Positions 1,262 to 33,432 of a stretch of 33,432 nt of DNA are shown here, one piece after another (position 1 is the stretch's first letter; each line of letters opens with the position of its first letter). The notes under the pieces are model-generated. The model had not been told where the DNA came from and did no database searches. It saw only the letters and a program-made list of their open reading frames with translations. The stretch is from assembly GCA_016871255.1 (NCBI GenBank), contig VFZH01000002.1, forward strand, positions 64,851-98,282. Direction: 5' to 3'. Both the position numbers and the translations under genes were made by a program. The stretch comes from Acidimicrobiia bacterium. Its GTDB lineage: Bacteria; Acidobacteriota; Vicinamibacteria; Vicinamibacterales; UBA2999.

Positions 1262-2617
1262 TCAGACCATCGTCGGGATGTCGAGCCGCCCGCGGCTGTC
1301 CCCGAACTTCTCGACGTGCGGCACGCCCAGCTTGTCGAGCAGGGTCAGGTACAGGTCCGCCACCGGTGCGCCGTCGGTCCAGACGCGGTGCCTGTTGCCC
1401 TTGATCCCGAACGGCTGGCCGCCCGCCACCACCATGGGGATGTTCAGCGGGTCGTGCTGGTTCGAGTTGCCGATGCCCGCGCCGTAGAACGAGATGGTGT
1501 GGTCCAGCAGCGTCCCATCGCCGTCCCGCGTGTTCTTCAGCGTCTCGAGGAAGTGCGCCCACATGCGGATGTGGAACGTGTTCAGCTTGGCCAGCCTCGC
1601 CATCCGCTCCGGGTTGTTCCCGTGGTGGGAGAGCGGGTGGTGGGAGTCGGGCACGCCGATCTCCGGATACGCCAGGTTGCTCAACTCACGGGCCAGCAGG
1701 AACGACCCCACGCGGGTGAGGTCGGTCTGGATGGCCAGCGCCATGAGGTCGAACTGGAGCTTCGCGTGCTCCTCGAACGAGCCCGGGATGCCGACCGGCT
1801 GATCCACCGACGGCAGTTCCTGGCTGATCTGCGTCTCCATCTTCTCGATCCGGCGCTCCACGTCCCGCACCGCCTCGAGATACTGCGCCAGCCGCGTCCG
1901 GTCGTCCGACGACAGCTTCGGCTGCATCGACACGACCGTGTCCATCACCGAGTCGATGATGCTCCGGTTCTTCCGGATGTAGGCCAGCCGCACCTGCTTG
2001 TCCGTGCTGCCGCTCGCCCCGAACAGCCGCTCGAACACCGCCCGCGGGTTGTGCTCCATCGGCAGCGGCGTCTTCGCGTCCTTCCAGGCGACCGTGTTGT
2101 TGTAGGCGCAGCCGTACCCGAAGGCACAGTTCCCCGACAGCCCCTCGGCCGACTCGATCGTCAGCTCCAGCGAGGTCAGCTGGGTGTCCACGCCCAGCGT
2201 CTTCGCTGCAATCTGGTCCATCGAGATCCCGGCCTCGAGATCGTGGTCCGCCTTCTTCGCACAGGTCGCCGTGAGCCACGCCGTCTGGCAGCGCGGGTGG
2301 ATGCCACCGTCCTGCACCTCGTTGACCGGATGGCTGTTCAGCCCGCTCAGGACGGTCACCTGGTCCTGGAACGGCGCCAGCGGCTGCAGAATCGGCGACA
2401 GCTCCAGCGCCTCGTTCGGCAGCCATTCCGGCGTCCACTGCGGCATTGTCATGCCGTTGCCGGCATACACGACCACCAGACGCTTCGGCGTGTCGGTTGC
2501 CGCGTTGCGCACGCCGGCAAACGCCGGCACCATGCCGTCCAGCAGGGGCAGGGCCAGCGCCGCGCCCGCACCGCGGAGCACCGTGCGACGTGACAGGTGT
2601 TTCTTCGTGACGATCAC
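1262..2617 (-). CDS. DUF1552 (HXXSHH family) Tat-exported protein
   Basis: 451 residues. The N-terminus carries a twin-arginine signal (LSRRTVLRG, residues 8-16), then a hydrophobic stretch and an AFA cleavage-like site near residue 34, so export of a folded protein to the periplasm is expected. The family-defining HxxSHH motif is at residues 327-332 (HPLSHH). The family has no established activity; its layout recalls DUF1501 and other alkaline-phosphatase-superfamily-like Tat proteins, but that is inference. The start is GTG at 2617, preceded by a very good GAGGAGG Shine-Dalgarno. It overlaps the stop of the DUF1592 gene as GTGA, so the two are translationally coupled and probably work as a pair, as their homologues commonly do in Acidobacteriota and Planctomycetota. 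Confidence 0.9.
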   Translation of the reverse strand: MIVTKKHLSRRTVLRGAGAALALPLLDGMVPAFAGVRNAATDTPKRLVVVYAGNGMTMPQWTPEWLPNEALELSPILQPLAPFQDQVTVLSGLNSHPVNEVQDGGIHPRCQTAWLTATCAKKADHDLEAGISMDQIAAKTLGVDTQLTSLELTIESAEGLSGNCAFGYGCAYNNTVAWKDAKTPLPMEHNPRAVFERLFGASGSTDKQVRLAYIRKNRSIIDSVMDTVVSMQPKLSSDDRTRLAQYLEAVRDVERRIEKMETQISQELPSVDQPVGIPGSFEEHAKLQFDLMALAIQTDLTRVGSFLLARELSNLAYPEIGVPDSHHPLSHHGNNPERMARLAKLNTFHIRMWAHFLETLKNTRDGDGTLLDHTISFYGAGIGNSNQHDPLNIPMVVAGGQPFGIKGNRHRVWTDGAPVADLYLTLLDKLGVPHVEKFGDSRGRLDIPTMV

Positions 2618-5091
2618 AGCGACCTCCTCATCTGGAACGGCATGCTACGGGTGACAGCTGAGACGAGCGACGACCACCGATAGTTCGCCGGCTTCGCTTC
2701 CTGCAGAATGGCCCGCACGATCGGCTGGTCCTCGGGCTCCACACCACGGCCAAGCGCGTAGGTCAGCAACTTCTCGGTCACCGTCGCCAGGAACTGCTCC
2801 TCCTGGCTCGCCAGCAGCGCCCGGAACTCCTCGACGCTCCCGAACTTCGACCCGTTCGGCATCGCCCCCGACGCGTCGATCGGGAACGGCCCGTCCAACT
2901 CCCGCCAGCCCCCGATCCCGTCGTAGTTCTCCAGCGCGAACCCCAGCGGGTCCATCTTCGCGTGGCACGACGCGCACACCGGGTTCTTCCGGTGCAGCTC
3001 CATCCGCGCCCGCACCGTCGGCGGCTCCGAGCCCGGCTTCGCTTCCGGGAACGGCGGCACGTTCGCCGGCGGCTCCGGCGGCGGCGTCCCGATGATGTTC
3101 ATCAGCACCCACTTGCCCCGCTGCACCGGCGACGTCCGGTTCGCATACGAGGTCGCCACCAGGATGCTCCCCTGCCCCAGCAACCCCGCCCGCCGCTGAT
3201 CCGGATACGTCACCCGCCGGAACCGCGGTCCGATGATGCCGTCCATCCCGTAGTGCTTCGCCAGCCGCTCGTCCACGAACGTGTAGTCCGCCGTCAGCAG
3301 CTCCAGCACACTCCGGTCCTCCTGCAACTGGCTCTGCAGGAACAGGCCCGTCTCCCGCCGGAACGACGCCCGCAGCTCGTCGTCGAACTCCGGGAACGCC
3401 GCCGGATCCGGCCGTACCGTGTCCAGCGCCCGCAGCGACAGCCACTGCGCGAAGAAGCCGTCCACCAGCGCCGCGGACCGCGGATCCTTCAGCATCCGCG
3501 CCACCTGCGCATCGAGCACCGCCGGCGTGTGCAGCCGCCCCTTGACCGCCACGTCGATCAGCTCGGCGTCCGGCGGGCGGCTCCACAGGAAGAACGACAA
3601 CCGCGACGCCAGCTCCAGGTCACTCAGCCGGTACGGCGTGCCCGCCGGCAGGTTCGCCGGGTCGGTCTCGATGCGGTAGAGGAACCGCGGGTCCACCAGC
3701 AGCCGCTCCAGCGCCCACTGGATCCCCATGTCGAAGTCGCCGATCTTGCGACCATCCGCGTACAGCGCCATGAACGGCGCCAGGTCCGCGTCGGTCACTG
3801 GCCGCCGGAACGCCTGCCGCGCCAGCGTCGAGACGATCCGCTGCGCGCACGCCACTTCCCCGGCCGGCGCCGCCGGGCGGCACACGAAGATCTTGTCCCG
3901 GCTCGGCGTCGACACCGGCCGCATCGCGTTGAACGGCCCGCGGATTTCCACGAGCTCCACGGCCATCTCGACCTTGCCGAACTCCACACCCGACTTCCGC
4001 GCCGAGGAGTAGCCGTAGCCGGCCACCGGGAGCCGGGACACGCCGACGCCCTCGGGCAGCCACAGCTTCCGCTGGAAGGTCACCCCCACCGTCCGCATGC
4101 CTGCCCGCGCCGGGAACTTCACGAAGAGCCGCTCGTCGGCGAAGCGCTCCTCTTCGGTTTCCTGATAGGGGCCGCGGAGGTCACCGTCCTGCTCCGCGTC
4201 GCCGCCCCCGATCTCGAACGACTTCACCAGGTCGCCGTCCACCCGGACATCGATGCGCTGCACTTCATCGAGGCCGCGAATCGCGCCGCCCAGGTTCACC
4301 GCGTGCCGCTGCAACCGCACCTGGAGCGTGTACTCCCCGTCCAGCGGGAAGTAGTGCTGCACGGCCACGCCGCCGCGCGAGCCGAACGGCAGGTCCTGGC
4401 TCACCCGCTCGTCCTGCAGCGCGAAGAACGACAGCTTGTACTCCTTCGCCTCCGGCCGCAGCCCCGGGTCCCCGACCGCCAGCCGCGCAATCCGCTGCGC
4501 CGCCGACATGTACCGCTCGAGCAGCCCCGGCGACATCGTCAACGCGTCCGCGATGTTGTCGAACCCGTAGCCCGAGTTGTCCGGCGGCAGGAGCTCCGCG
4601 CTGTCCACCTCCAGCGCCAGCAGATCCTCGATCGCGTTCGCGTACTCGACCCGGTTCAGCCGATGGATCCCGCTCCGGCCCGGATCCGGGTGCGCCGCCG
4701 CCTCGTAGTCCAGCGAGGCCCGCACCGACCCGACGAAGGCGTCGACGTCGGCGGGAGCCGGCTTCCGCGCGCCGTCCGGCGGCATCGCGCCCGACTCGAG
4801 CTTCCGCAGCACCTTCTCCCAGACCTCGGCGTTCTCGGCCAGTGCCGCCATGTCGCGGTTCTGCAGCACCAGGTTGCCGCTCTGCATCCGCTCGCTGTGG
4901 CACGTCGCGCAGTACTGGTCCACGAGCGCGCGCGACGGCACCGGCGGCGCCGCGGCCGGCAGCGCCGGCATCAGCACATCGGCAGGCACCTTCGACGCGC
5001 CCCGCGCACCCTGGCCCGCAGCCTGAAGACCGGCCACGGCCAGCGCGCCCGCAAGGCCCGCTACGGTGATGACTCTGATCCGCTGGTGCAT
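2614..5091 (-). CDS. Exported DUF1592/DUF1588/DUF1585-family c-type cytochrome
   Basis: 825 residues from the ATG at 5091. An N-terminal hydrophobic segment (about residues 7-25) looks like a Sec signal peptide. A c-type heme site CATCH follows at 61-65, with a likely axial Met in GAMPPDG near 103. Domains in order: DUF1587-like (about 142-206), a beta-rich carbohydrate-binding-like middle region, DUF1595-like (about 415-475), DUF1592 (about 487-617), DUF1588 (about 640-735) with a second CASCH at 706-710, and DUF1585 (about 749-825). These multi-DUF cytochromes are typical of Planctomycetota and Acidobacteriota; their substrate is unknown, and periplasmic electron transfer is the safest inference. 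An in-frame ATG 26 codons upstream overlaps the ankyrin gene; I chose 5091 because GGGGGGAGGAA lies just upstream and the signal peptide then begins at the start. Confidence 0.9.
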   Translation of the reverse strand: MHQRIRVITVAGLAGALAVAGLQAAGQGARGASKVPADVLMPALPAAAPPVPSRALVDQYCATCHSERMQSGNLVLQNRDMAALAENAEVWEKVLRKLESGAMPPDGARKPAPADVDAFVGSVRASLDYEAAAHPDPGRSGIHRLNRVEYANAIEDLLALEVDSAELLPPDNSGYGFDNIADALTMSPGLLERYMSAAQRIARLAVGDPGLRPEAKEYKLSFFALQDERVSQDLPFGSRGGVAVQHYFPLDGEYTLQVRLQRHAVNLGGAIRGLDEVQRIDVRVDGDLVKSFEIGGGDAEQDGDLRGPYQETEEERFADERLFVKFPARAGMRTVGVTFQRKLWLPEGVGVSRLPVAGYGYSSARKSGVEFGKVEMAVELVEIRGPFNAMRPVSTPSRDKIFVCRPAAPAGEVACAQRIVSTLARQAFRRPVTDADLAPFMALYADGRKIGDFDMGIQWALERLLVDPRFLYRIETDPANLPAGTPYRLSDLELASRLSFFLWSRPPDAELIDVAVKGRLHTPAVLDAQVARMLKDPRSAALVDGFFAQWLSLRALDTVRPDPAAFPEFDDELRASFRRETGLFLQSQLQEDRSVLELLTADYTFVDERLAKHYGMDGIIGPRFRRVTYPDQRRAGLLGQGSILVATSYANRTSPVQRGKWVLMNIIGTPPPEPPANVPPFPEAKPGSEPPTVRARMELHRKNPVCASCHAKMDPLGFALENYDGIGGWRELDGPFPIDASGAMPNGSKFGSVEEFRALLASQEEQFLATVTEKLLTYALGRGVEPEDQPIVRAILQEAKPANYRWSSLVSAVTRSMPFQMRRSL

Positions 5092-5104
5092 CGATTCCTC
5101 CCCC

Positions 5105-6562
5105 CTACTCGTCCGTGGCACCGAGCTGCCGCAGCAGGGCTGCGGTGTCTTCCCGCACGTGCTGTCCACCAGCCGCGCCGTACCCGAGCGACATCTTGAA
5201 CGCCGTCTGCCCGCGCTTGTTCTTCGCGTCCAGGTTGGCGCCGTTCGCCGCCAGCACCTTGATCACTTCGTTGAAGCCGCCGGAGATCGTGCCGTGCAGC
5301 GCCGTGTTCCCGGTCGCGTTGGTCCCGTCGATGTCCATGCCGATCCGGAGACAGAACTCGGTGGCGGAGAGGTACTCCGCCTCGGTGGCAATCGTTTCGT
5401 TGTCCATCCAGGCCATGCCGGCGGCCAGCATCAGCGCCGTGGATCCGTTCCGCGTCGGCACGTTCGGATCCGCCCCCCCCGCGAGCAGGATCTGCATCAC
5501 CTCGACGTCACCAGCCATCGCCGCGAGCGCGAACGCGGTGGCACCCGCCGTGTACTGCTTCGCCGAACCCGCCACCAGGCTGAACCCGTAACGCGGCGGC
5601 TCCTTGAGCAGCCGGAGGTTCGGATCGGCGCCGTGCGCGATCAGCGTCTTGATCATGTCGAGCTTGTCGGCCCGCGGCAGGCCCGCCAGGATCGCCCACT
5701 CGCCCGGGGCGTTGACGTAGTCGCGTGAATCGACGCCGTCCCAGGTCGCGGCGGCGAACTGCAGCGCGGTGTAGCCGGTCGAGATCACATCCGGATCGGC
5801 CCCCAGCTCCAGGAAGTACTTGGCCAGCCCCACGTGCCCGCGGAGGACCGCCACGATGAACGGCGTCGCGCCGTCCTCGGCTTCGTCCGTCAGCCGCGCG
5901 CCCTTGCCGAGCAGCAGCTGCACGCTGTCGACGGAGTCGTACCGCGTGGCGAACATGAGAGGCGTGAAGCCGCCCGTCGAACGCGCGTGCACGTCCGCGC
6001 CCGCTTCGACCAGCGCCTTGGCCGCCCCGAAGTGCGGACCCGACAGCGCCCACATCAGCGCCGTCTGCCCCTTCAGGCTCTCTGCGGCGTTGACGTCCGC
6101 GCCGGCCCGGAGCAGGGCGGTCACCGCGCCAACGCGCCCGGTGCGCGACGCGATCATCAGCGGGGTCTCCCCGCTCGGCATCGCCCGGTTGGGGTCGGCA
6201 CCCGCACCGAGCAGGCGCTCGATCGCGGCGGCGCTCCCGTTCTCGCACGCGAGCATCAGCGGCGTGAAGCCGTAGTCGTTCGCCACATCGGCCTTCGCCC
6301 CCGCCGCAAGCAGCGCCTCGACGATATCGATCTCGTCGTAGTGCACCGCCCAGTGCAGCGGCGTCGCCCCGTCCGGCTGGCGAACGTTGACGTCCGCACC
6401 GCTCTTGATCAGCGCCTGCGCCGTCACGACGTCGTGGGCCTGAATGGCGTCGCGCAGACGGGTGTCCGCCCCCTCCGTGACCGGCGGCAGGGCGAGCCCT
6501 GCCAGCAGAACGATGAACACCGCGGTCGCGTGCCCCTGCCGGCTGGTTCGAGCGTGTCTCAC
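5105..6562 (-). CDS. Secreted ankyrin-repeat protein
   Basis: 485 residues from GTG 6562 (492 from an ATG at 6583). After a basic N-terminus and hydrophobic segment (AVFIVLLAGLALP), which reads as a signal peptide, most of the protein is roughly ten ankyrin repeats. These show the usual pattern of G-x-TPLxxA, then a leucine-rich helix, then GADxN/D at about 33-residue spacing. Ankyrin arrays are protein-binding scaffolds; a periplasmic or surface partner is likely and the adjacent DUF1592 cytochrome is the obvious candidate. I prefer GTG because GGAGGG sits 5 nt upstream, while the ATG has no Shine-Dalgarno and would lie about 6 nt from the predicted transcript start. It is the first gene of the operon, ending 13 nt before the DUF1592 gene. 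Confidence 0.88.
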   Translation of the reverse strand: MRHARTSRQGHATAVFIVLLAGLALPPVTEGADTRLRDAIQAHDVVTAQALIKSGADVNVRQPDGATPLHWAVHYDEIDIVEALLAAGAKADVANDYGFTPLMLACENGSAAAIERLLGAGADPNRAMPSGETPLMIASRTGRVGAVTALLRAGADVNAAESLKGQTALMWALSGPHFGAAKALVEAGADVHARSTGGFTPLMFATRYDSVDSVQLLLGKGARLTDEAEDGATPFIVAVLRGHVGLAKYFLELGADPDVISTGYTALQFAAATWDGVDSRDYVNAPGEWAILAGLPRADKLDMIKTLIAHGADPNLRLLKEPPRYGFSLVAGSAKQYTAGATAFALAAMAGDVEVMQILLAGGADPNVPTRNGSTALMLAAGMAWMDNETIATEAEYLSATEFCLRIGMDIDGTNATGNTALHGTISGGFNEVIKVLAANGANLDAKNKRGQTAFKMSLGYGAAGGQHVREDTAALLRQLGATDE

Positions 6563-25088: not shown

Positions 25089-27293
25089 CTACTTCGCCAG
25101 CGGATCCGGCCGCATCTGGAAGTGCGCCACGTACGGGTGTGACCCCTTGCCGCCTTCCTGGTGCCAGACGGTGTTGGTGGCCTGGTTGGCCCACAGTCCG
25201 CGGCCCTTCCAGCCGGCGTCCGGGTCATCGATACGCCCGTCGAGCCCCCGCGTGAAGAAGCCGACCGGATACGGCACGCGCAACTGGACCATCTTCCCGC
25301 TGTCACGCTGCAGGGCGAACAGCGAGTCGGACGCGCTGCCGTTGCTGACCGGCACGTCGTGGCCCAGACCGAGCGTGTTGAACTGATCCACCCAGTTGTA
25401 ATAGTGATACTGGCTCGTCCCCGGCTCCGCCTGGTTCTTGAAGCGCGGTCCGGGTGTCTCGTACAAGGTCCAGCCTTCGGGGCAGTGCTGCCCGGTCGCC
25501 GTCGGACCGTTCGTCACCCTGCACCGCCGGCGATCGAAGCTGGCGGTCTGGCCCGTGCCAGCCAGCGCCGTCCAGATCAGGCCGTTGCGATCCACATCGA
25601 CACCACGCGGCGTGGCACCGTGCATCTTCGGCGCGTTCGGGTTCTTCATGGGTGGCTCGTAGACCTCCGACAGGCAGGTCTTCGGATCGAGACGCGCCAC
25701 CCGGCCGGGGAACGGTCCGGGGTTCGCGATCCAGACCGAGTGATCCACCGGGTTCACGATGATCCCGTAGCCTCCCGTCAGCAGCCTGACATCCTTCGTC
25801 GGGTCCACCTTCAGCAGGTTGTCACCCTTGAACGAGTGCGTGCCCTGCATGCCGCCGGGCGGCGGCTCGTCGATCCAGGGCCCAGCCTTGCCGTCCCCGT
25901 TCGTGTCGATGACGATCGGGCACCACCCCTGCGCCTTCTCGGCGTCACCCGTCTCGTCGAACACGCGCGTGTTGATCCACCCCACCGTGTTGCCGACGCC
26001 GCTGAGGTACAGCGTGTCGTCCGGATCCTCGTCGAACTGGAGGTGGTGGGTGCCGAAGCAGGTGTCGATCAGCGTGAACTGCTCCGTCTTCGGATCGAAC
26101 ATCGAGACCTGATGGCCGCCGCCCTGCTCCAGGGGATAGAACTGCGCCGAGGGATGCGTCGATCCTTCACGGCAGAACGCCGGCTGGTCGTCGCTGTCGC
26201 GAATCTGGGACGTGATCCAGATGCGCCCCTTGCCGTCCATCATCGGGTTGTGCGGATGCGCGGGCGCATTCCAGATGATCTCCTCCCCGAAGAACGGGGA
26301 CGGCACCTTGACCTCGAGCGGGAAGTTCGACCGGTTGTTCGCGTTCTCGCGCACGGGCACCTTGTATTCCGTGGCCTTGCTCTCCACCGGATCGAGCACG
26401 GTCAGGTAGTCTCGGCCGAAGTCCACACCGTAGATCAGCCCGTTCGGGTTCAGCGTCGGCTTCCGCTTGTCGGTGCTGATCAGATCGTGGATGTAGCTGG
26501 TCGGCGCACCCCAGTCCCACAGCGTCAGGACCAGGTTCCGCTCGATCCCCGTGGGACGGGGCGGCTGCGCCGGCACCTCGCCCGCGGCAATGCGATCGGT
26601 CCAGTCCGCGTAGAGCTCGATGGCCCTCGGGCCCAGCACGTTGAAGCCCGCCGTCATCGACGTGTCGCCGCGCTGTCCGAAGCGTGCGCGAGCCCGCCAC
26701 GCATCGACGCTCGTCTTGTATCCCTTCAGGTGCGCCAATGTGCGGGTGATGGGATCGCCCATCGCGTGGCAGTTGTTGCACCCCACCTGAATCGCGGCGA
26801 TCCACTCCGCCTGCGACTTGAAGGTCGTCGGGATCCCGTTCCCGTTCGCGCCGGTGCCGGGGAACTCGCTCGGCCCGGGCAGCTCGAGGAGCGAGTGCCA
26901 GTAGTTCGGCGGATAGATCCGCGCAGCCGCCTGCGGCGTCGGCGCCGGAACGGCGGTCAGCTGCAGCGTGCGGCCCGGCGCCGAACTCACCGGCTGGGAA
27001 TCGACCAGGCCGTAGCCACGCACCCACAGGCGATACGTCGCACGCGGCAGGTCCGGTACGAGGAACCGGCCACGGTCGTCGGTGACGACGATCTTCCGCA
27101 GCTTCGTCGGCAGGTCGTCGGTCTCCGCGATCACCCACACCCCGGCTTCGGGCCCGGTCGGGCCCTGCACCACGCCACCGATGTCGTCGGGGTCGACCGG
27201 AACCTGCGGCGCCTGGCGCGCCTGCAGGGCCGGGAACAGAACCGCGCTGAGGGCGGCAACCGCCAGCCCTAGGTGCCATCTTCGGTACGCCAC
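25089..27293 (-). CDS. Exported c-type cytochrome with carboxypeptidase-regulatory-like domain and beta-propeller
   Basis: 734 residues. A signal peptide (LGLAVAALSAVLFPALQA, about 8-25) is followed by a carboxypeptidase-regulatory-like beta sandwich (about 38-114). A c-heme site CNNCH comes next (172-176). The rest (about 270-720) has repeating blades with segments such as GRIWITSQIRD, NGLIWTALAG and GIIVNPVDHSVWIANPGP, typical of Vgb/SMP-30-like propellers. Proteins with this make-up are frequent in Acidobacteriota; a periplasmic redox or lyase role is plausible but unproven. Start is GTG at 27293 with an excellent GGAGGAGG a few bases upstream. No operon partner is visible on this strand; the spermidine-synthase-like gene diverges from it. 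Confidence 0.87.
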   Translation of the reverse strand: MAYRRWHLGLAVAALSAVLFPALQARQAPQVPVDPDDIGGVVQGPTGPEAGVWVIAETDDLPTKLRKIVVTDDRGRFLVPDLPRATYRLWVRGYGLVDSQPVSSAPGRTLQLTAVPAPTPQAAARIYPPNYWHSLLELPGPSEFPGTGANGNGIPTTFKSQAEWIAAIQVGCNNCHAMGDPITRTLAHLKGYKTSVDAWRARARFGQRGDTSMTAGFNVLGPRAIELYADWTDRIAAGEVPAQPPRPTGIERNLVLTLWDWGAPTSYIHDLISTDKRKPTLNPNGLIYGVDFGRDYLTVLDPVESKATEYKVPVRENANNRSNFPLEVKVPSPFFGEEIIWNAPAHPHNPMMDGKGRIWITSQIRDSDDQPAFCREGSTHPSAQFYPLEQGGGHQVSMFDPKTEQFTLIDTCFGTHHLQFDEDPDDTLYLSGVGNTVGWINTRVFDETGDAEKAQGWCPIVIDTNGDGKAGPWIDEPPPGGMQGTHSFKGDNLLKVDPTKDVRLLTGGYGIIVNPVDHSVWIANPGPFPGRVARLDPKTCLSEVYEPPMKNPNAPKMHGATPRGVDVDRNGLIWTALAGTGQTASFDRRRCRVTNGPTATGQHCPEGWTLYETPGPRFKNQAEPGTSQYHYYNWVDQFNTLGLGHDVPVSNGSASDSLFALQRDSGKMVQLRVPYPVGFFTRGLDGRIDDPDAGWKGRGLWANQATNTVWHQEGGKGSHPYVAHFQMRPDPLAK

Positions 27294-27387
27294 GACCTCC
27301 TCCAGTTCCTCCAGGGCGATCTGCGGCCGGCCTGGTGCCGCGCAGACCAGCGCACCGCCGCCTCCGCGCCGGTCCGCATTCAGCGGG

Positions 27388-27393
27388 TAAGAT
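27388..27393 (+). promoter_or_regulatory. Candidate -10 element for the spermidine-synthase-like gene
   Basis: TAAGAT is a 4/6 match to TATAAT in the short divergent region between 27293 and the next gene. No convincing -35 is seen 16-18 nt upstream. A start near 27400 would put GGAGG (27408-27412) inside a very short leader. Confidence 0.25.
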
Positions 27394-27452
27394 ACCGGAC
27401 GGTTTCCGGAGGATCAACGATTCAGGGACGACTTCAGAGCGAAGCGGGACGA

Positions 27453-29891
27453 GTGTGGGCGCCTCTTCCCCTTCTCTTCGCTGCCAGTGGCGCCGCGGCG
27501 CTCATCTGCGAAACCGTCTGGCTCCAGGCACTGGAACTGGTCATCGGCTCGTCGGCAGTCTCGATCGGGGTGCTTCTGGCGACGTTCATGGGCGGCATGT
27601 GTCTGGGCAGTCTGGCGTTGCCCCGCGTTGTCAGTCCACGCCGCCATCCACTGCTCGTCCTCGGGCTCGTTGAAACGGCGATCGGCGGCCTGGCGCTCGC
27701 GGTCCAGGCGCTCCTGCCGGCAATCAGCGGGATCTACGGGCAGTTTGGCGGCGCGGGGATCCCCGGACTCGCGTTACGCGGTGCCATCGCCGGGCTGCTG
27801 CTCCTCCCACCAACGATGGCCATGGGTGCATCGATTCCCGCCATCGCCCGATGGACCGGAGAATCGCCCCTCGGCATCACACGGCTCGGCTGGATCTACG
27901 CTGCCAACGTCGGGGGCGCCGTTGCCGGCGCCTTGCTGGCCGGCTTCTACCTCCTGCGCGTGTTCGACATGCACACGGCGATCACCGTCGCCGTTGCCCT
28001 CAACTTCTCGGCGGCCGCCATGGCCTTCCTCCTTGCGTTCCGGTGGCGGTTCGCCTGGAACCCACCTGTCGAGCCACCGCCGGCGGTATCGACGGTGTCC
28101 TCGCGCCCGACCAGTGCCGTCGCGATCCCTCGTACCCTCTCTCCCGTGCTGCTGGCGGTGCTGGTCTCGGGCTTCAGTGCACTCGCCGCAGAAGCCGTGT
28201 GGACGCGACTGCTCGGCATGCTCCTTGGCCCGACCGTGTACGCCTTCGCGATCATGCTGGCGGTCTTCCTGGCCGGCCTGGCCGGAGGTGCGGCAGGGGC
28301 GGCGGCACTCGCGCGACGGTGGCAGCCCCGCGCGGCGCTGGGCTGGTGCCAGCTGCTGGTGCCTCTCGGCATCGGCTGGACCGCCCACGTCACGAGTGCC
28401 TGGCTGCCCTACTGGGACGTGCCGCCCCAGGCTGGAGAGAACCTGTCCACGCGGTTTGCGTTCGACGCCCTGCGCACGACCGTGGCCGTCCTGCCCGCCA
28501 CCCTCCTGTGGGGCGCCAGCCTCCCGTTGGCGCTCGCCGCCGCCGCCGGTACCGGATCACGCGACCCCGGGAGGACCGCAGCCGCCGTCTACGCGAGCAA
28601 CGCCCTTGGCGCGGTCTTCGGGGCGCTCGCGGGAGCGATAGTCCTCCTCCCCTGGCTCGGCACGCAGGGCGCCGGGCGGCTGATCACCCTGCTCTCCATC
28701 CTGGCCGGCCTGATCGTGCTCGTGCCCGAGCGGCGCCGGGCTGCGCAGCTCGGCGGTATTCGGCTGCCACTGCTGGCTGGCGTGACGGCGGCGATGCTGG
28801 CGATCGTGCTCAGCCTTCCACCGGTCCCCGGTCTCCTCGTGGCCTATGGCCAGCAGGCGTCGGCCTACGCGGGCTACGAAGACGAACTCATCTTCGTCGG
28901 GGAGGGCATGACTGCCTCGGTTGCGGTCTCCCGTCTCCAGGACGGCACGCTCCTTTATCACAACGCCGGCAAGGTGCAGGCGTCCAGTCAGGCGTTCGAC
29001 ATGCGCTTGCAGCGCATGCTGGGCCATCTGACGACGCTGGTGCCGGCGCACCCGCGGTCGGTGCTGGTCGTCGGGTGCGGAGCGGGAGCAACGGCTGGCG
29101 CCGTGAGCATCGACCCCAGGGTCGAACGAGTGACGGTTGTCGAGATCGAGCCGCTGGTGCCGCCGACGGCGGCGGAGTACTTCTCGTCGATCAACCACGA
29201 CGTGCTGCGCAGCCCCAAGACCCGGGTGGTAATCGACGACGCCCGTCACTTCCTGCTGACGACGACGGAGACCTACGACGCCATCACGGCGGATCCGCTC
29301 GACCCGTGGGTGAAGGGATCGGCGGCGCTGTACACCCGGGAGTTCTTCGAGACCGTTCGATCGCGACTGAACCCGGGCGGCGTGATGACGCTCTTCGTCC
29401 AGCTCTACCTCACGACGCCGGACGCGGTGAAGAGCGAGCTGGCCACCTTTTTCAGCGTCTTTCCCGACGGCGTCGTGTGGGCGAACACGGCGGCCGGCCG
29501 TGGCTACGATCTCGTGCTCCTGGGGCACAAGGGACCGGCGGCGATCGATCTGGGCCATATCCGCTCGAGGCTGGAACGGCCCGAGTACGCGGACGTCGTC
29601 CTCTCCCTCGCGGAGGTGGACATCGGGACCGTGCTCGACCTCGCGGTGACGTACGCGGGGCGCGCCGTCGATCTCGGGGAGTGGTTGCGGGACGCCACCA
29701 TCAATACGGACGCGAATCTGCGGCTGCAGTACCTCGCGGGCGTCGGGTCCGCGACCTACGAAGCGGACAGCATCTTCGCGGATCTCGAGCGCCATCGGCG
29801 GTTTCCGCCGGGGCTCTTCGTAGGCGCAGACGATCTCGTGAACCTGCTGCGGCTGACGATGCGGCCGCCGCTGCCGCCAGTCGATCCGTGA
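27453..29891 (+). CDS. Membrane-fused spermidine-synthase-like protein
   Basis: 812 residues from GTG 27453. The N-terminal half is strongly hydrophobic with many transmembrane helices, beginning LLFAASGAAALICETVWLQ, a start typical of fused MFS/spermidine synthase proteins. The C-terminal half is a spermidine-synthase fold: VLVVGCGAGATAG (about 534-546) for nucleotide binding, VVEIEP, DDARHF, then DPLDPW near residue 613, which keeps the catalytic Asp position of the usual DSSDP. The glycine loop reads GCGAGA instead of GGGDGG, losing the acidic residue that helps bind the amine, so the substrate may not be putrescine. The start is uncertain: GTG 27453 has no good Shine-Dalgarno, an in-frame ATG at 27273 overlaps the divergent gene, and an in-frame ATT at 27420 has GGAGG at ideal spacing. 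Confidence 0.85.
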   Translation: MWAPLPLLFAASGAAALICETVWLQALELVIGSSAVSIGVLLATFMGGMCLGSLALPRVVSPRRHPLLVLGLVETAIGGLALAVQALLPAISGIYGQFGGAGIPGLALRGAIAGLLLLPPTMAMGASIPAIARWTGESPLGITRLGWIYAANVGGAVAGALLAGFYLLRVFDMHTAITVAVALNFSAAAMAFLLAFRWRFAWNPPVEPPPAVSTVSSRPTSAVAIPRTLSPVLLAVLVSGFSALAAEAVWTRLLGMLLGPTVYAFAIMLAVFLAGLAGGAAGAAALARRWQPRAALGWCQLLVPLGIGWTAHVTSAWLPYWDVPPQAGENLSTRFAFDALRTTVAVLPATLLWGASLPLALAAAAGTGSRDPGRTAAAVYASNALGAVFGALAGAIVLLPWLGTQGAGRLITLLSILAGLIVLVPERRRAAQLGGIRLPLLAGVTAAMLAIVLSLPPVPGLLVAYGQQASAYAGYEDELIFVGEGMTASVAVSRLQDGTLLYHNAGKVQASSQAFDMRLQRMLGHLTTLVPAHPRSVLVVGCGAGATAGAVSIDPRVERVTVVEIEPLVPPTAAEYFSSINHDVLRSPKTRVVIDDARHFLLTTTETYDAITADPLDPWVKGSAALYTREFFETVRSRLNPGGVMTLFVQLYLTTPDAVKSELATFFSVFPDGVVWANTAAGRGYDLVLLGHKGPAAIDLGHIRSRLERPEYADVVLSLAEVDIGTVLDLAVTYAGRAVDLGEWLRDATINTDANLRLQYLAGVGSATYEADSIFADLERHRRFPPGLFVGADDLVNLLRLTMRPPLPPVDP

Positions 29892-29958: not shown

Positions 29959-30420
29959 ATGAACAAAGTGACACCGTTCCTCATGTTCAACGACCAGCTC
30001 GAAGCGGCGATCGACTTCTACACCGCGACGTTTCCGAACTCCGAAGTACGGAGCGTTGCCCGCACGGGCAGCGACGGTCCCATCAGCTCCGCCGAGTTCG
30101 TCGTTGGTGGCCAACCATTCATGGGCTACAACGGAGGTTCGTACTTCACCTTCTCTGAGGGGGTCTCGCTCTACGTCGACTGCGCGGATCAGGACGAAGT
30201 GGATGAATACTGGGACAAGCTCGTGAAGGCGGGAGCGACGCCCACGCAGTGCGGCTGGATCAAGGACCCCTTCGGTCTCTCCTGGCAGATTGTCCCGAGG
30301 CGATTCACCGAGCTGACCCGTGACCGGGACCCCAGGAAGGTGAAGGCCGTGATGGACGCGATGATGACGATGGTGAAGCTCGACGTGGCGGAGATCGAGA
30401 GAGCCTACAACGAGGCGTAG
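29959..30420 (+). CDS. PhnB-like VOC-family protein
   Basis: 153 residues starting MNKVTPFLMFNDQLEAAIDF, the usual opening of PhnB/3-demethylubiquinone-methyltransferase-like VOC proteins. Two beta-alpha-beta-beta-beta modules are recognisable, the second ending with KDPFGLSWQIVPRRF. The family shares the glyoxalase/bleomycin-resistance fold, but many members have no known substrate. AGAGGAGA lies about 7 nt before the ATG. It is 67 nt after the spermidine-synthase-like gene and may be co-transcribed with it. It converges with the VWA gene at 30472. Confidence 0.93.
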   Translation: MNKVTPFLMFNDQLEAAIDFYTATFPNSEVRSVARTGSDGPISSAEFVVGGQPFMGYNGGSYFTFSEGVSLYVDCADQDEVDEYWDKLVKAGATPTQCGWIKDPFGLSWQIVPRRFTELTRDRDPRKVKAVMDAMMTMVKLDVAEIERAYNEA

Positions 30421-30471: not shown

Positions 30472-31584
30472 TCACGCCAGCCAGCGCGAGAGCAGCACCC
30501 AGACCGTTGCCGCGCCGGCGAGCTGCACCAGCAGCTCCGTCCGGCTTCGCAGGAACAACGACCCGGCCGCGACCAGGACAGCCGCCGCTGCGAGGCACGG
30601 CCAGTACAGATCCACCGCCTGCTCCTCGTGTCCGCTGCTCGCCGCCCGCCGCCTGGCGTCGTCGATGATCGCGTTGGCGATGCGCCGATCCCCATCCCGC
30701 CCGAGCTCGAAGTAGCGGCCACCACCCTTCGCCGCGATCTCCGCCAGCGACTCGCGGTCGAGCACGGAGCGGACCGGTGAGAAGCGCACGGTTCCGGACG
30801 GGTCGTCGGCTGCAGGCACCGCGTCCGGAATGAACCCGCCGGCTGTCGTGCCCACGCCGACCACGACGATCGGGATGCCTGCGGCGCGCGCGAGCTGAAT
30901 CGACTCCTCGACCTCGCCGGACCACGCCTGCCCGTCCGACACCAGCACGAACACCTTCGCGTTGGACGAGGGGCCGTGCAGTTCCTCGTCCCGCTCGACC
31001 AACCGCAATCCCCAGTAGATCCCGAGCTCGATGTTCGTATCCCAGGTGGTGTCCTCGTCGAGGGGGAACGGCGACTCGTCCACGAGGTGATCGAGGAAGA
31101 AGAAGTAGGTGTTGGGGTCCGTGGTCAGCCGTACCTGCGGGGCCGCGATGTGCGCGAACACCGCCAGGGCGACGCGATCGTCCTGCCAGCGCAGCGACTC
31201 GCCCAGCGTGCGCAGGAAGCGGACCGAGCGCTTCCAGCGATCACCCTCCACGTCCCTGACGCGTGTGGAGGACGACCCGTCCTGGAGCACGATCAGGTCC
31301 ACGCCGCCGGTGCGGATCAGGGCCGTCGTCGCCACCGGGCGCGCCAGCGCCAGCACCGTCGCGCCGAGCGCGAGCGCGAGCAGGAGCCAGAAGGGACCGT
31401 CGCCGGTCAGCGGCAGGTGCTCGCGCACCGGCACCGTGCGGCGCGCGAGCAGCGCCCGCCGGTCGAGCCACCGCGCCCACTGCAGACGCAGCGCAAGCCC
31501 CCCGAGGATCGCGGGGACGACCAGCAGCCAGAGGAACGCCGGCTGCTCGAAGCGGAGGTTTGCGACGTCAAAGCCGATCGACAC
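30472..31584 (-). CDS. Membrane-anchored VWA-domain protein (MxaL/BatB-like)
   Basis: 370 residues from GTG 31584. A hydrophobic helix (about 16-34) and a second (about 64-82) precede the von Willebrand factor A domain. Its metal-ion site is complete: DGSSS at 102-106, a TTWDTN Thr near 180, and VSDGQ with Asp217. A C-terminal hydrophobic pair (about 330-365) gives further membrane anchors, leaving the VWA domain on one face of the membrane. The start overlaps the stop of the upstream TPR-like gene by one base (TAGTG), and GAGAGGG lies just upstream, so the two are translationally coupled. The closest patterns I know are BatB of Bat operons and MxaL of methanol-dehydrogenase maturation clusters; gene order favours the second slightly. 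Confidence 0.88.
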   Translation of the reverse strand: MSIGFDVANLRFEQPAFLWLLVVPAILGGLALRLQWARWLDRRALLARRTVPVREHLPLTGDGPFWLLLALALGATVLALARPVATTALIRTGGVDLIVLQDGSSSTRVRDVEGDRWKRSVRFLRTLGESLRWQDDRVALAVFAHIAAPQVRLTTDPNTYFFFLDHLVDESPFPLDEDTTWDTNIELGIYWGLRLVERDEELHGPSSNAKVFVLVSDGQAWSGEVEESIQLARAAGIPIVVVGVGTTAGGFIPDAVPAADDPSGTVRFSPVRSVLDRESLAEIAAKGGGRYFELGRDGDRRIANAIIDDARRRAASSGHEEQAVDLYWPCLAAAAVLVAAGSLFLRSRTELLVQLAGAATVWVLLSRWLA

Positions 31585-32249
31585 TACCCTCTCCGGATGC
31601 GCGTCCGGCCGGCCCCGGCCTCGGAGTCTTCCTGGCGTTCCTCGCCGCGCTTGGGGATCACGACCTTGAACTGGCCCATGTCGGCGCCCTCGGGTGGCGC
31701 ACCCGGGGTGCCGTGAATCGTCGGCGCGGCCGCCTCCGCGTCTTCGTCCGGAACGGCGCCTCCTCCGAGCTGCCGGGCCACGAGCTCGTAGTTGTAGGCG
31801 GCATCCACGTGCCCGGGCACGCGTTCGAGCACCTGCGCGTACGCCTCCAGCACCTTCGCCATCCCGCCCGATTCGCGATCCGCCTCCGCGGCTGCCCTGT
31901 ACGCCGCGTTCGCGGCCGCCAGCATCAGATCCGGATCGGGCGTGTCGGTCTGCGCCCCGTCGGGCGAGGGGAGCGGGAGCGAGGCGTAGTCCGACAGCCA
32001 ATAGGTGGCCACCGCGCGGCGCGCACGCGCCTCCTCCAGCCGCCCGGCTCCGTACACCGGCAGGTACACCGCCACGCCGGCCGCCTCCTCCAACCGGTCA
32101 TACGCGTCCACCGCCTCGGCGAACGACATCGAGGCCATGTGCCGGAGCGCCTGCGCCGACTGCTGCTCGAGCCGCCCCGCGGCGAGACACAGGATGCCGG
32201 TCCCGAACAGGACCGGCGCCAGCACCGCCCGCGCCACCACCGTCGTCAT
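31584..32249 (-). CDS. Small membrane-anchored TPR-like protein (MxaK-like)
   Basis: 221 residues from ATG 32249, preceded by AAGGAGAG. The N-terminus has one hydrophobic segment (about 5-25) that could be a signal peptide or anchor. A helical region follows with TPR-like spacing, including RRAVATYWLSDYASL, LMLAAANAAYRAA and VPGHVDAAYNYELVAR. The tail (about 160-221) is low complexity, acidic then basic, and likely disordered. It lies between two VWA genes, 29 nt after one and overlapping the other by one base. Small TPR-type partners occur in both mxaCKL and Bat operons. Assignment to MxaK is by position and general character only. Confidence 0.8.
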   Translation of the reverse strand: MTTVVARAVLAPVLFGTGILCLAAGRLEQQSAQALRHMASMSFAEAVDAYDRLEEAAGVAVYLPVYGAGRLEEARARRAVATYWLSDYASLPLPSPDGAQTDTPDPDLMLAAANAAYRAAAEADRESGGMAKVLEAYAQVLERVPGHVDAAYNYELVARQLGGGAVPDEDAEAAAPTIHGTPGAPPEGADMGQFKVVIPKRGEERQEDSEAGAGRTRIRRG

Positions 32250-32278
32250 CACGCTCTCCTTCTCATCCCGCGTCCCGG

Positions 32279-33382
32279 TCAGGGAAACGTCCGGAACAGC
32301 GGCAGCCCGACTTTCATGATCAGGGCCAGGCTCCAGAATCCGGTCGCGAACAAGGCGAACGGCGCGAAGGCCGGGCTCCGGGTCGTGTACTGCCGCATCG
32401 ACACCGTCCCTTCCGCCATCTCGTCGATCTCCCGGATCGCGCGCAGCATCGTCGCCTCGTCGGACACCGCGTAGAACCGCCCTCCGGTGCTCTCGACGGC
32501 GGGTTGCCAGATGCGATCCGGAATCGCATCGCCGAACGGCTTGTCGAAGTTCGTGCGGATGAAATACACGGGCACCTTCGCCTCGATCGCGCCGGCGAGC
32601 ACCTCGCGCACCGGTCGCCCGCCGACGGTGACCTGCGAGTCCTGCCCGTCGCTGAAGATCACCATCAGGTTGCCGGAAGCGTCGAGGAAGTTGAACGCCC
32701 TGAACAGGTTCACGCTCTGCTCGATGGCCTGCCCGATCGTCGTGCCCTGATCGGGGAACCGCATGAACTCGGTCCAGTCGCCGATCAGCGACAGGCTCAG
32801 CAGCACGTTGTCGTAGTCGTTGGTGAACGGCGTCACCACGTAGGCCTCGTCGCCGAACTCGATCAACGCCACGACGTCGCGGTACTCGGCGCGCATGCGC
32901 AGCTCCAGGAACCGCTCGGCGGCCGCCACGGTCGTGAAGAAGGTCGCCTCCTTCGGCGCCTTCGCGTTGAGCTGGCCGGCGCGGAACGTGGACATCATGC
33001 TCGACGAGGCATCGATCAGGAGCGCAATGCGGCGCCCGGGATACGACACCTCGGTGTGCCCCAGGGGCAGGAACGGGTCGGCTATCGCCAGCGCGAAGCA
33101 GGGAACGCCCGCGACGAACGCCGCGGCGGGCGCGTGCCGAAGCCACGACAGCCAGGATCGCCGGACGTCGAGCATCGCCGGCAGGACGAGGCGACCGCTG
33201 TGGCGTCGCCCGTGACCGATCGCCCGGACGGCGAGCAGCACCAGGGCGATGCCGCCGAGCGCGAGGAGCAGCGCCAGCGGGGCGCTCGGGCGGCCGGACA
33301 CCAGGTCGGCCACGCGCAGGCTGTCCCACCCGGCGAGCGTCGTGCGAACCGACTCCAGCAGGGCAGCCGGCGGCGTGATCAT
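32279..33382 (-). CDS. Membrane-anchored VWA-domain protein (MxaC/BatA-like)
   Basis: 367 residues. Transmembrane helices at about 34-54 and 85-103 precede a VWA domain with an intact metal site: DASSS at 124-128, DQGTTIG with Thr near 214, and FSDGQD with Asp245. A further helix near the C-terminus (FAPFALFATGFWSLALIM) closes the protein. The ATG at 33382 forms an ATGA overlap with a TGA that ends an open frame to the right, which suggests coupling to an upstream gene; no separate Shine-Dalgarno is evident. It is the first complete gene of the VWA-TPR-VWA trio. Such proteins are thought to act with MoxR-type ATPases as metal-dependent chaperones. Confidence 0.9.
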   Translation of the reverse strand: MITPPAALLESVRTTLAGWDSLRVADLVSGRPSAPLALLLALGGIALVLLAVRAIGHGRRHSGRLVLPAMLDVRRSWLSWLRHAPAAAFVAGVPCFALAIADPFLPLGHTEVSYPGRRIALLIDASSSMMSTFRAGQLNAKAPKEATFFTTVAAAERFLELRMRAEYRDVVALIEFGDEAYVVTPFTNDYDNVLLSLSLIGDWTEFMRFPDQGTTIGQAIEQSVNLFRAFNFLDASGNLMVIFSDGQDSQVTVGGRPVREVLAGAIEAKVPVYFIRTNFDKPFGDAIPDRIWQPAVESTGGRFYAVSDEATMLRAIREIDEMAEGTVSMRQYTTRSPAFAPFALFATGFWSLALIMKVGLPLFRTFP

Positions 33383-33432
33383 CGCGCCAGCCCGGCCGGG
33401 GAATCGACACGTCCCGCGGCGCCGGAGTCGGC
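33379..33432 (-). CDS. Possible C-terminal end of an upstream gene (partial)
   Basis: The frame from the window edge reads 17 codons (ADSGAAGRVDSPAGLAR) and stops at TGA, overlapping the next gene's ATG as ATGA. Too little is visible to identify the product. In related operons the preceding gene would be an MxaA-like, DUF58 or MoxR-type protein. The support is only the overlap geometry. Confidence 0.35.
   Translation of the reverse strand, partial: ADSGAAGRVDSPAGLAR

Follow-up and report, generated by a model that had tools for sequence, protein, structure and literature searches.

A lineage-restricted MoxR/VWA operon with the gene order of mxaRSACKL and Bat-like proteins in an Acidobacteriota genome, probably serving a client other than methanol dehydrogenase

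Gene organization of the locus

The window analyzed here, a stretch of 33,432 nucleotides from the assembly GCA_016871255.1 (Acidimicrobiia bacterium, placed in the Vicinamibacterales of the Acidobacteriota), has its right edge at the end of contig VFZH01000002.1 (C2), and the final 3 kb are filled by three minus-strand genes for two membrane-anchored VWA proteins and, between them, a small anchored protein. The first gene, VWA1 (33382-32279), which holds the position of mxaC, encodes 367 aa with two N-terminal transmembrane (TM) segments, a VWA domain with a metal ion-dependent adhesion site (MIDAS) and one C-terminal TM segment. It is separated by a gap of 29 nt (32250-32278), carrying a GGAG-type ribosome site ahead of the next ATG, from K (32249-31584; 221 aa), which has a single N-terminal TM segment. 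The last gene, VWA2 (31584-30472; 370 aa), is located in the position of mxaL and combines two N-terminal TM segments, a MIDAS VWA domain and C-terminal TM segments; its GTG start codon overlaps the TAG stop codon of K (31586-31584) by one base. The GC content at the third codon position of the three genes is 0.90-0.93. An open frame that enters from the contig end (33379-33432, minus strand) contributes the last 17 codons and the TGA of a BatD-like gene, termed A, and as this frame stops in an ATGA overlap, with its TGA (33381-33379) sharing bases with the ATG of VWA1, a real coupled gene is present upstream. The remainder of A lies past the contig end and its head is probably found on contig C46 (L030:2-949, minus strand). 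A preliminary description of the window, based on its letters, had given the same coordinates, gap, one-base overlap, flanking VWA genes and probable coupled gene, all of which proved correct on re-reading.

Both VWA proteins exceed the Pfam cut-offs for VWA_2/VWA and exhibit full MIDAS sets, namely D124/S126/S128, T214 and D245 in VWA1 and D102/S104/S106, T183 and D217 in VWA2. These residues are invariant in the 35-member alignments, which bears out the complete metal sites proposed earlier. VWA2 also matches the solved BatB structure 3ibs at 1.2e-22 in a search of the PDB, where no relative of gene A was found. The loop between the first two TM segments is positively charged in 35 of 35 VWA1 sequences (mean K+R 5.9 versus D+E 0.4) and in 34 of 35 VWA2 sequences (8.4 versus 2.7), and because of this strongly positive loop the VWA domains and K are predicted to be periplasmic. 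The small protein had been described as anchored and TPR-like: the anchor is present, and the TPR assignment holds as a resemblance, since K of the window has no match in Pfam or NCBIfam and isolated members of its family (36 sequences) match TPR models at E 0.016-0.06. No MxaA, MxaC, MxaK or MxaL family was returned for any of the operon proteins in the NCBIfam and Pfam scans.

Conservation among relatives

Fifty-nine genomes, i.e., the organism's own (G000) and 58 relatives, were searched with an orthologue defined by an E value below 1e-80, and VWA1 orthologues were identified in the own genome and in 27 relatives. After removal of L105 and L106, which represent another operon type, from 37 relative loci, 35 related loci remained. 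Twenty-five of them carry the complete order MoxR-DUF58-A-VWA1-K-VWA2, four are devoid of DUF58 and six are interrupted by contig ends. K is situated between the VWA genes in 34 loci and in the remaining one the contig stops after K. With 35 homologous loci, a chance arrangement can be excluded. Four genomes of one genus possess two copies each, one with DUF58 (L089, L092, L093, L094) and one without (L085, L086, L088, L090). Among 297 genomes sampled evenly across the phylum, strong matches to K (E up to 1e-50) were found in 15, all from the same family or order; no strong match occurred in the remaining genomes of this sample, the weak ones elsewhere reaching 8e-10 at best.

The upstream half and a second copy in the genome

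Three strong MoxR (AAA_3) genes were identified in the genome, on contigs C44, C46 and C37. At the end of C46, a minus-strand MoxR gene (946-1986) is followed, via an ATGA overlap, by a gene A that is broken off after 316 residues, compared with a length of about 380-420 residues in relatives. The profile of gene A detects two copies in the genome, a complete one on C37 and the C46 copy, which breaks off at position 309 of the 405 in the profile; one further match, with E 0.24, does not rise above chance level. C46 thus runs off its end with MoxR-A, and C2 presents the A tail, VWA1, K and VWA2 at its own end. Furthermore, a CxxCH protein of the window (25089-27293) has its nearest paralogue in the genome, 67% identical, on C46, the next being 55% identical. 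Because of the truncated gene A on C46, the A tail on C2 and this paralogue, the two contigs are most likely neighbors, and the window copy would then read MoxR-A-VWA1-K-VWA2 without DUF58.

A second copy of the operon comprises MoxR-DUF58-A-VWA1 on C37, and contig C102 starts with K-VWA2. This copy appears to be split, with the first part in L034 on C37 (11659) and K-VWA2 in L109 (199-2190) at the very start of C102; the split appears to reflect either a rearrangement or an assembly break. Small genes resembling toxin-antitoxin pairs are located after VWA1 on C37. The coupling of a MoxR AAA+ gene to MIDAS VWA genes is seen directly in relatives, and in the own genome on C37 and via the proposed join of C46 and C2.

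Several other genes of the window deserve mention. The CxxCH protein has a CarboxypepD_reg-like start and is encoded on the minus strand both in the window and at L030:3642-5897; 16 matches to it occur in the genome, and a remnant of its C-terminus, 77% identical, lies just downstream on C46. On the minus strand at 1262-5169, a DUF1552 and DUF1587/1588/1592/1595 cytochrome pair stands beside an ankyrin-like gene, and C46 has a similar set, close to what is probably the operon's other half. A plus-strand gene (27273-29891) encodes a fused protein of 872 aa of the membrane/spermidine-synthase type (NF037959, above cut-off) and is adjoined by a gene of the 3-dmu-9_3-mt family (29959-30420).

Comparison with mxa and Bat operons

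Genome contigs supplied 80 named mxaF loci as a reference for the mxa genes. The order F-R-S-A-C-K-L was present in 68 of them, the others being shorter, and MoxR-DUF58-A-VWA1-K-VWA2 equals mxaR-S-A-C-K-L. In the literature, the mxaRSACKL part of the mxa cluster is described as low-expressed, and the genes downstream of mxaI are credited with roles that include Ca2+ insertion, chaperoning and regulation (PMC3615186). The earlier suggestion that VWA-small-VWA matches mxaC-K-L better than the Bat order therefore stands: the mxaRSACKL order is found in the related loci, and it differs from all Bat operons read. In the own genome, the window copy is divided between two contigs and no counterpart of mxaS is seen in it.

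Five Bat operons were read (Bacteroides, Parabacteroides, Persicobacter, Sagittula and Methylobacterium), and in all of them the VWA genes are adjacent. Bacteroides shows MoxR-DUF58-BatD-like-VWA-VWA-TPR-BatD-TPR, an order shared by Parabacteroides, in which the gene ahead of the first VWA gene is annotated as hypothetical, and both Persicobacter and Sagittula show MoxR-DUF58-DUF4381-VWA-VWA-BatD. The upstream MoxR and DUF58 genes are thus common to both arrangements, whereas in Bat operons TPR and/or BatD genes follow the paired VWA genes and here K separates them.

Profile-profile comparisons were performed after length filtering (for example, 35 of 37 VWA1 and 30 of 33 A sequences were kept) against five BatA, five BatB and two BatC rows, with the BatB rows trimmed to 345 residues and the Bat-reference loci L197, L198 and L199 not used. 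A second run was carried out without realignment and included 21 shuffled or reversed controls. Among the named families, VWA1 scored highest with BatA (157), followed by BatB (119), MxaC (88) and MxaL (6), and VWA2 with BatB (201), followed by BatA (160), MxaC (49) and MxaL (41). Though the second run placed VWA2 versus MxaL at 45.5 against a null maximum of 22, VWA2 hardly resembles MxaL as judged by these profiles. K matched MxaK with a score of 46 and a probability of 88% (null maximum 18 over the 21 controls) at 13% identity, which identifies it, at the level of profiles, as a remote homologue of MxaK; no profile match between K and BatC was obtained with the two BatC rows. Profile homology also links DUF58 to MxaS and MoxR to MxaR. 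Gene A matched BatD (46.7 versus a null maximum of 19), and with MxaA it gave no signal (27.4 versus 27.0). Of the likeness to MxaC, MxaK and MxaL that the preliminary description had expected, that of K to MxaK is borne out, and the best named matches of VWA1 and VWA2 are BatA and BatB.

The best profiles overall were those of the VWA proteins of the L105/L106 operon type, with scores of 183 for VWA1 and 218 for VWA2. In L105 (G058:C99, 7827-13287), the VWA and TPR proteins represent the closest profiles for VWA1, VWA2 and K, but the genes are permuted to TPR-VWA-MoxR-DUF58-..-VWA, equivalent to K-L-R-S-..-C, and the identity is about 27%. A tree of 62 VWA proteins agrees with this relationship: VWA2 joins its L105/L106 cousin with support of 98/96, and VWA1 groups with its own cousin and MxaC at 93/84, below the starred level. 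MxaL forms a long, separate branch in this tree and three BatB rows are long-branched as well. Approximately unbiased (AU) tests did not reject a clade of VWA2, permL and MxaL (p 0.19) and gave p-AU 0.043 for VWA2 with MxaL alone; with this split result, the deep placement of MxaL is uncertain.

These comparisons bear on the idea, raised before as an alternative, that the locus is a rearranged Bat module acting in general envelope integrity or oxidative stress without a dedicated client. Its sequence half is borne out by the kinship of VWA1 with BatA, of VWA2 with BatB and, remotely, of A with BatD, and by the MoxR, DUF58 and VWA genes of Bat operons. The gene order argues against it, as does the missing BatC match of K, and a stress role of Bat itself found no support in Leptospira in the accessible part of the study (PMC3557215). 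Such a module is possible, though we consider it rather doubtful.

Candidate clients

The same six-gene order invites the view that the operon is a true Mxa module loading calcium (or a lanthanide) into a PQQ (pyrroloquinoline quinone) methanol dehydrogenase of the MxaF/XoxF type. This would be consistent with the mxaRSACKL operons that accompany MxaFI in Methylorubrum, Hyphomicrobium and others, in which MxaR, MxaS, MxaC and MxaK are homologous to MoxR, DUF58, VWA1 and K, and with the grouping of VWA1 and MxaC in the tree. Here, however, mxaFJGI genes are missing from the operon, VWA2 is not MxaL-like, A is not detectably MxaA-like, and a search with an MxaF fragment revealed no MxaF/XoxF-type enzyme in the own genome (no match of at least 40%; best 8.5e-21) or in any of the 27 operon-bearing relatives. 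The three of the 59 genomes that do carry an MxaF-fragment relative of 40-42% (G019, G027 and G058) are without the operon, and mxaF/J/G/I-type genes were not recurrent neighbors in the loci read. A role in maturing an MxaF/XoxF-type enzyme is accordingly highly improbable and close to refuted. Genomes of Sphaerotilus are reported to have, in some cases, mxa accessory genes without MxaFI (PMC13300288). The XoxF3 clusters described for Acidobacteria include XoxG and XoxJ, and the term “moxR” is absent from the available text of that article (PMC10875860).

Alternatively, the operon might mature other periplasmic PQQ-dependent dehydrogenases, which occur in several copies in the lineage. The genome encodes five full-length PQQ dehydrogenases, none of the XoxF/MxaF type; those on C19, C114, C37 and C38 show W-D-Y-D in place of the W-D-Y-A of MxaF, and a distance of about 8 kb separates the one on C37 from the second copy of the operon. 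A full-length PQQ dehydrogenase is present in 26 of 27 operon-bearing relatives and in 21 of 31 others (Fisher p 0.007), and in L072, L086, L088 and L090 a PQQ-type gene follows the operon on the same strand. Nevertheless, 21 relatives have such dehydrogenases without the operon, the association disappears within the family (22/23 versus 10/12, p 0.27) and outside of it (4/4 versus 11/19, p 0.26), and three of the four downstream cases belong to one genus. PqqE was not above the cut-off in the own genome, a negative that lacks a positive control because 14 control genomes were below the cut-off as well. As the association is not seen within the family, co-occurrence does not support the PQQ dehydrogenases as clients, and we regard this role as unlikely.

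With five PQQ dehydrogenases and no PqqE above the cut-off, PQQ is possibly taken up from outside. The CxxCH/CarboxypepD_reg protein of the window was also considered as a client and rejected, as its co-occurrence with the operon was not significant (20/27 versus 19/31, p 0.40).

Discussion

The best reading of the locus is that of a lineage-restricted, Mxa-ordered and Bat-like operon, a new variant of the known MoxR/VWA type and not a methanol dehydrogenase module. We consider it likely that the three genes, corresponding to C-K-L, close an operon for a membrane chaperone, MoxR-(DUF58)-A-VWA1-K-VWA2, which exists in two copies in the genome and whose client is neither MxaF nor XoxF. Since the proteins are Bat-like and the genome has no methanol dehydrogenase of that type, the machine probably serves another envelope protein. 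In the proposed mechanism, MoxR would form a cytosolic AAA+ ring driven by ATP, the motion of which would be relayed via A, in which a TM segment is predicted to connect a periplasmic part with a cytosolic tail, and/or via DUF58 to a membrane complex of VWA1, K and VWA2. Using its MIDAS metals, this complex may grip acidic residues on a client in the periplasm or the membrane and remodel that client, probably while a metal or cofactor is being loaded or a complex assembled.

A role in metal insertion or remodeling would be supported by other pairs of a MoxR AAA+ ATPase with a MIDAS VWA protein, such as NorQ/NorD, RavA/ViaA and CbbQ/CbbO; for NorQ/NorD, the available sections of the literature report iron insertion into nitric oxide reductase with a requirement for an intact MIDAS motif (PMC9976466). 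In contrast to the operon described here, NorQ/NorD is described there as most likely cytosolic and has no membrane VWA-K-VWA set.

Several points weigh against this interpretation. Homology of A to MxaA is undetected, the periplasmic placement of the VWA domains and K draws on hydropathy and charge only, the join of C46 and C2 is deduced rather than sequenced, and DUF58 seems to be missing from the window copy. No flanking gene family recurs in more than six of 38 loci, so the neighborhood points to no client. In addition, Bat operons are without a proven biochemical function: in Leptospira biflexa, deletion of all bat genes is reported to have given no phenotype with respect to growth, morphology or oxidative stress (PMC3557215). 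No publication on the operon itself was found in literature searches.

A broader, decidedly speculative and quite unlikely scenario is that the C-K-L arrangement is older than its methanol dehydrogenase client. In that case, mxaRSACKL would have been recruited from a lineage of generalist chaperones of the periplasm, represented by the operon and its cousin with the permuted order K-L-R-S-..-C, and the present client of the operon would be another periplasmic metalloenzyme.

The genes mxaACKL are usually read as helpers of methanol dehydrogenase, and the same layout is conserved here in genomes without that enzyme, which cautions that methylotrophy should not be annotated from the accessory genes. 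The operon, often duplicated and sometimes without DUF58, offers a system in which to look for the client that a membrane MoxR/VWA machine really serves. Should VWA1-K-VWA2 prove to be the general core, what MxaC, MxaK and MxaL do could be tested outside of methylotrophs.

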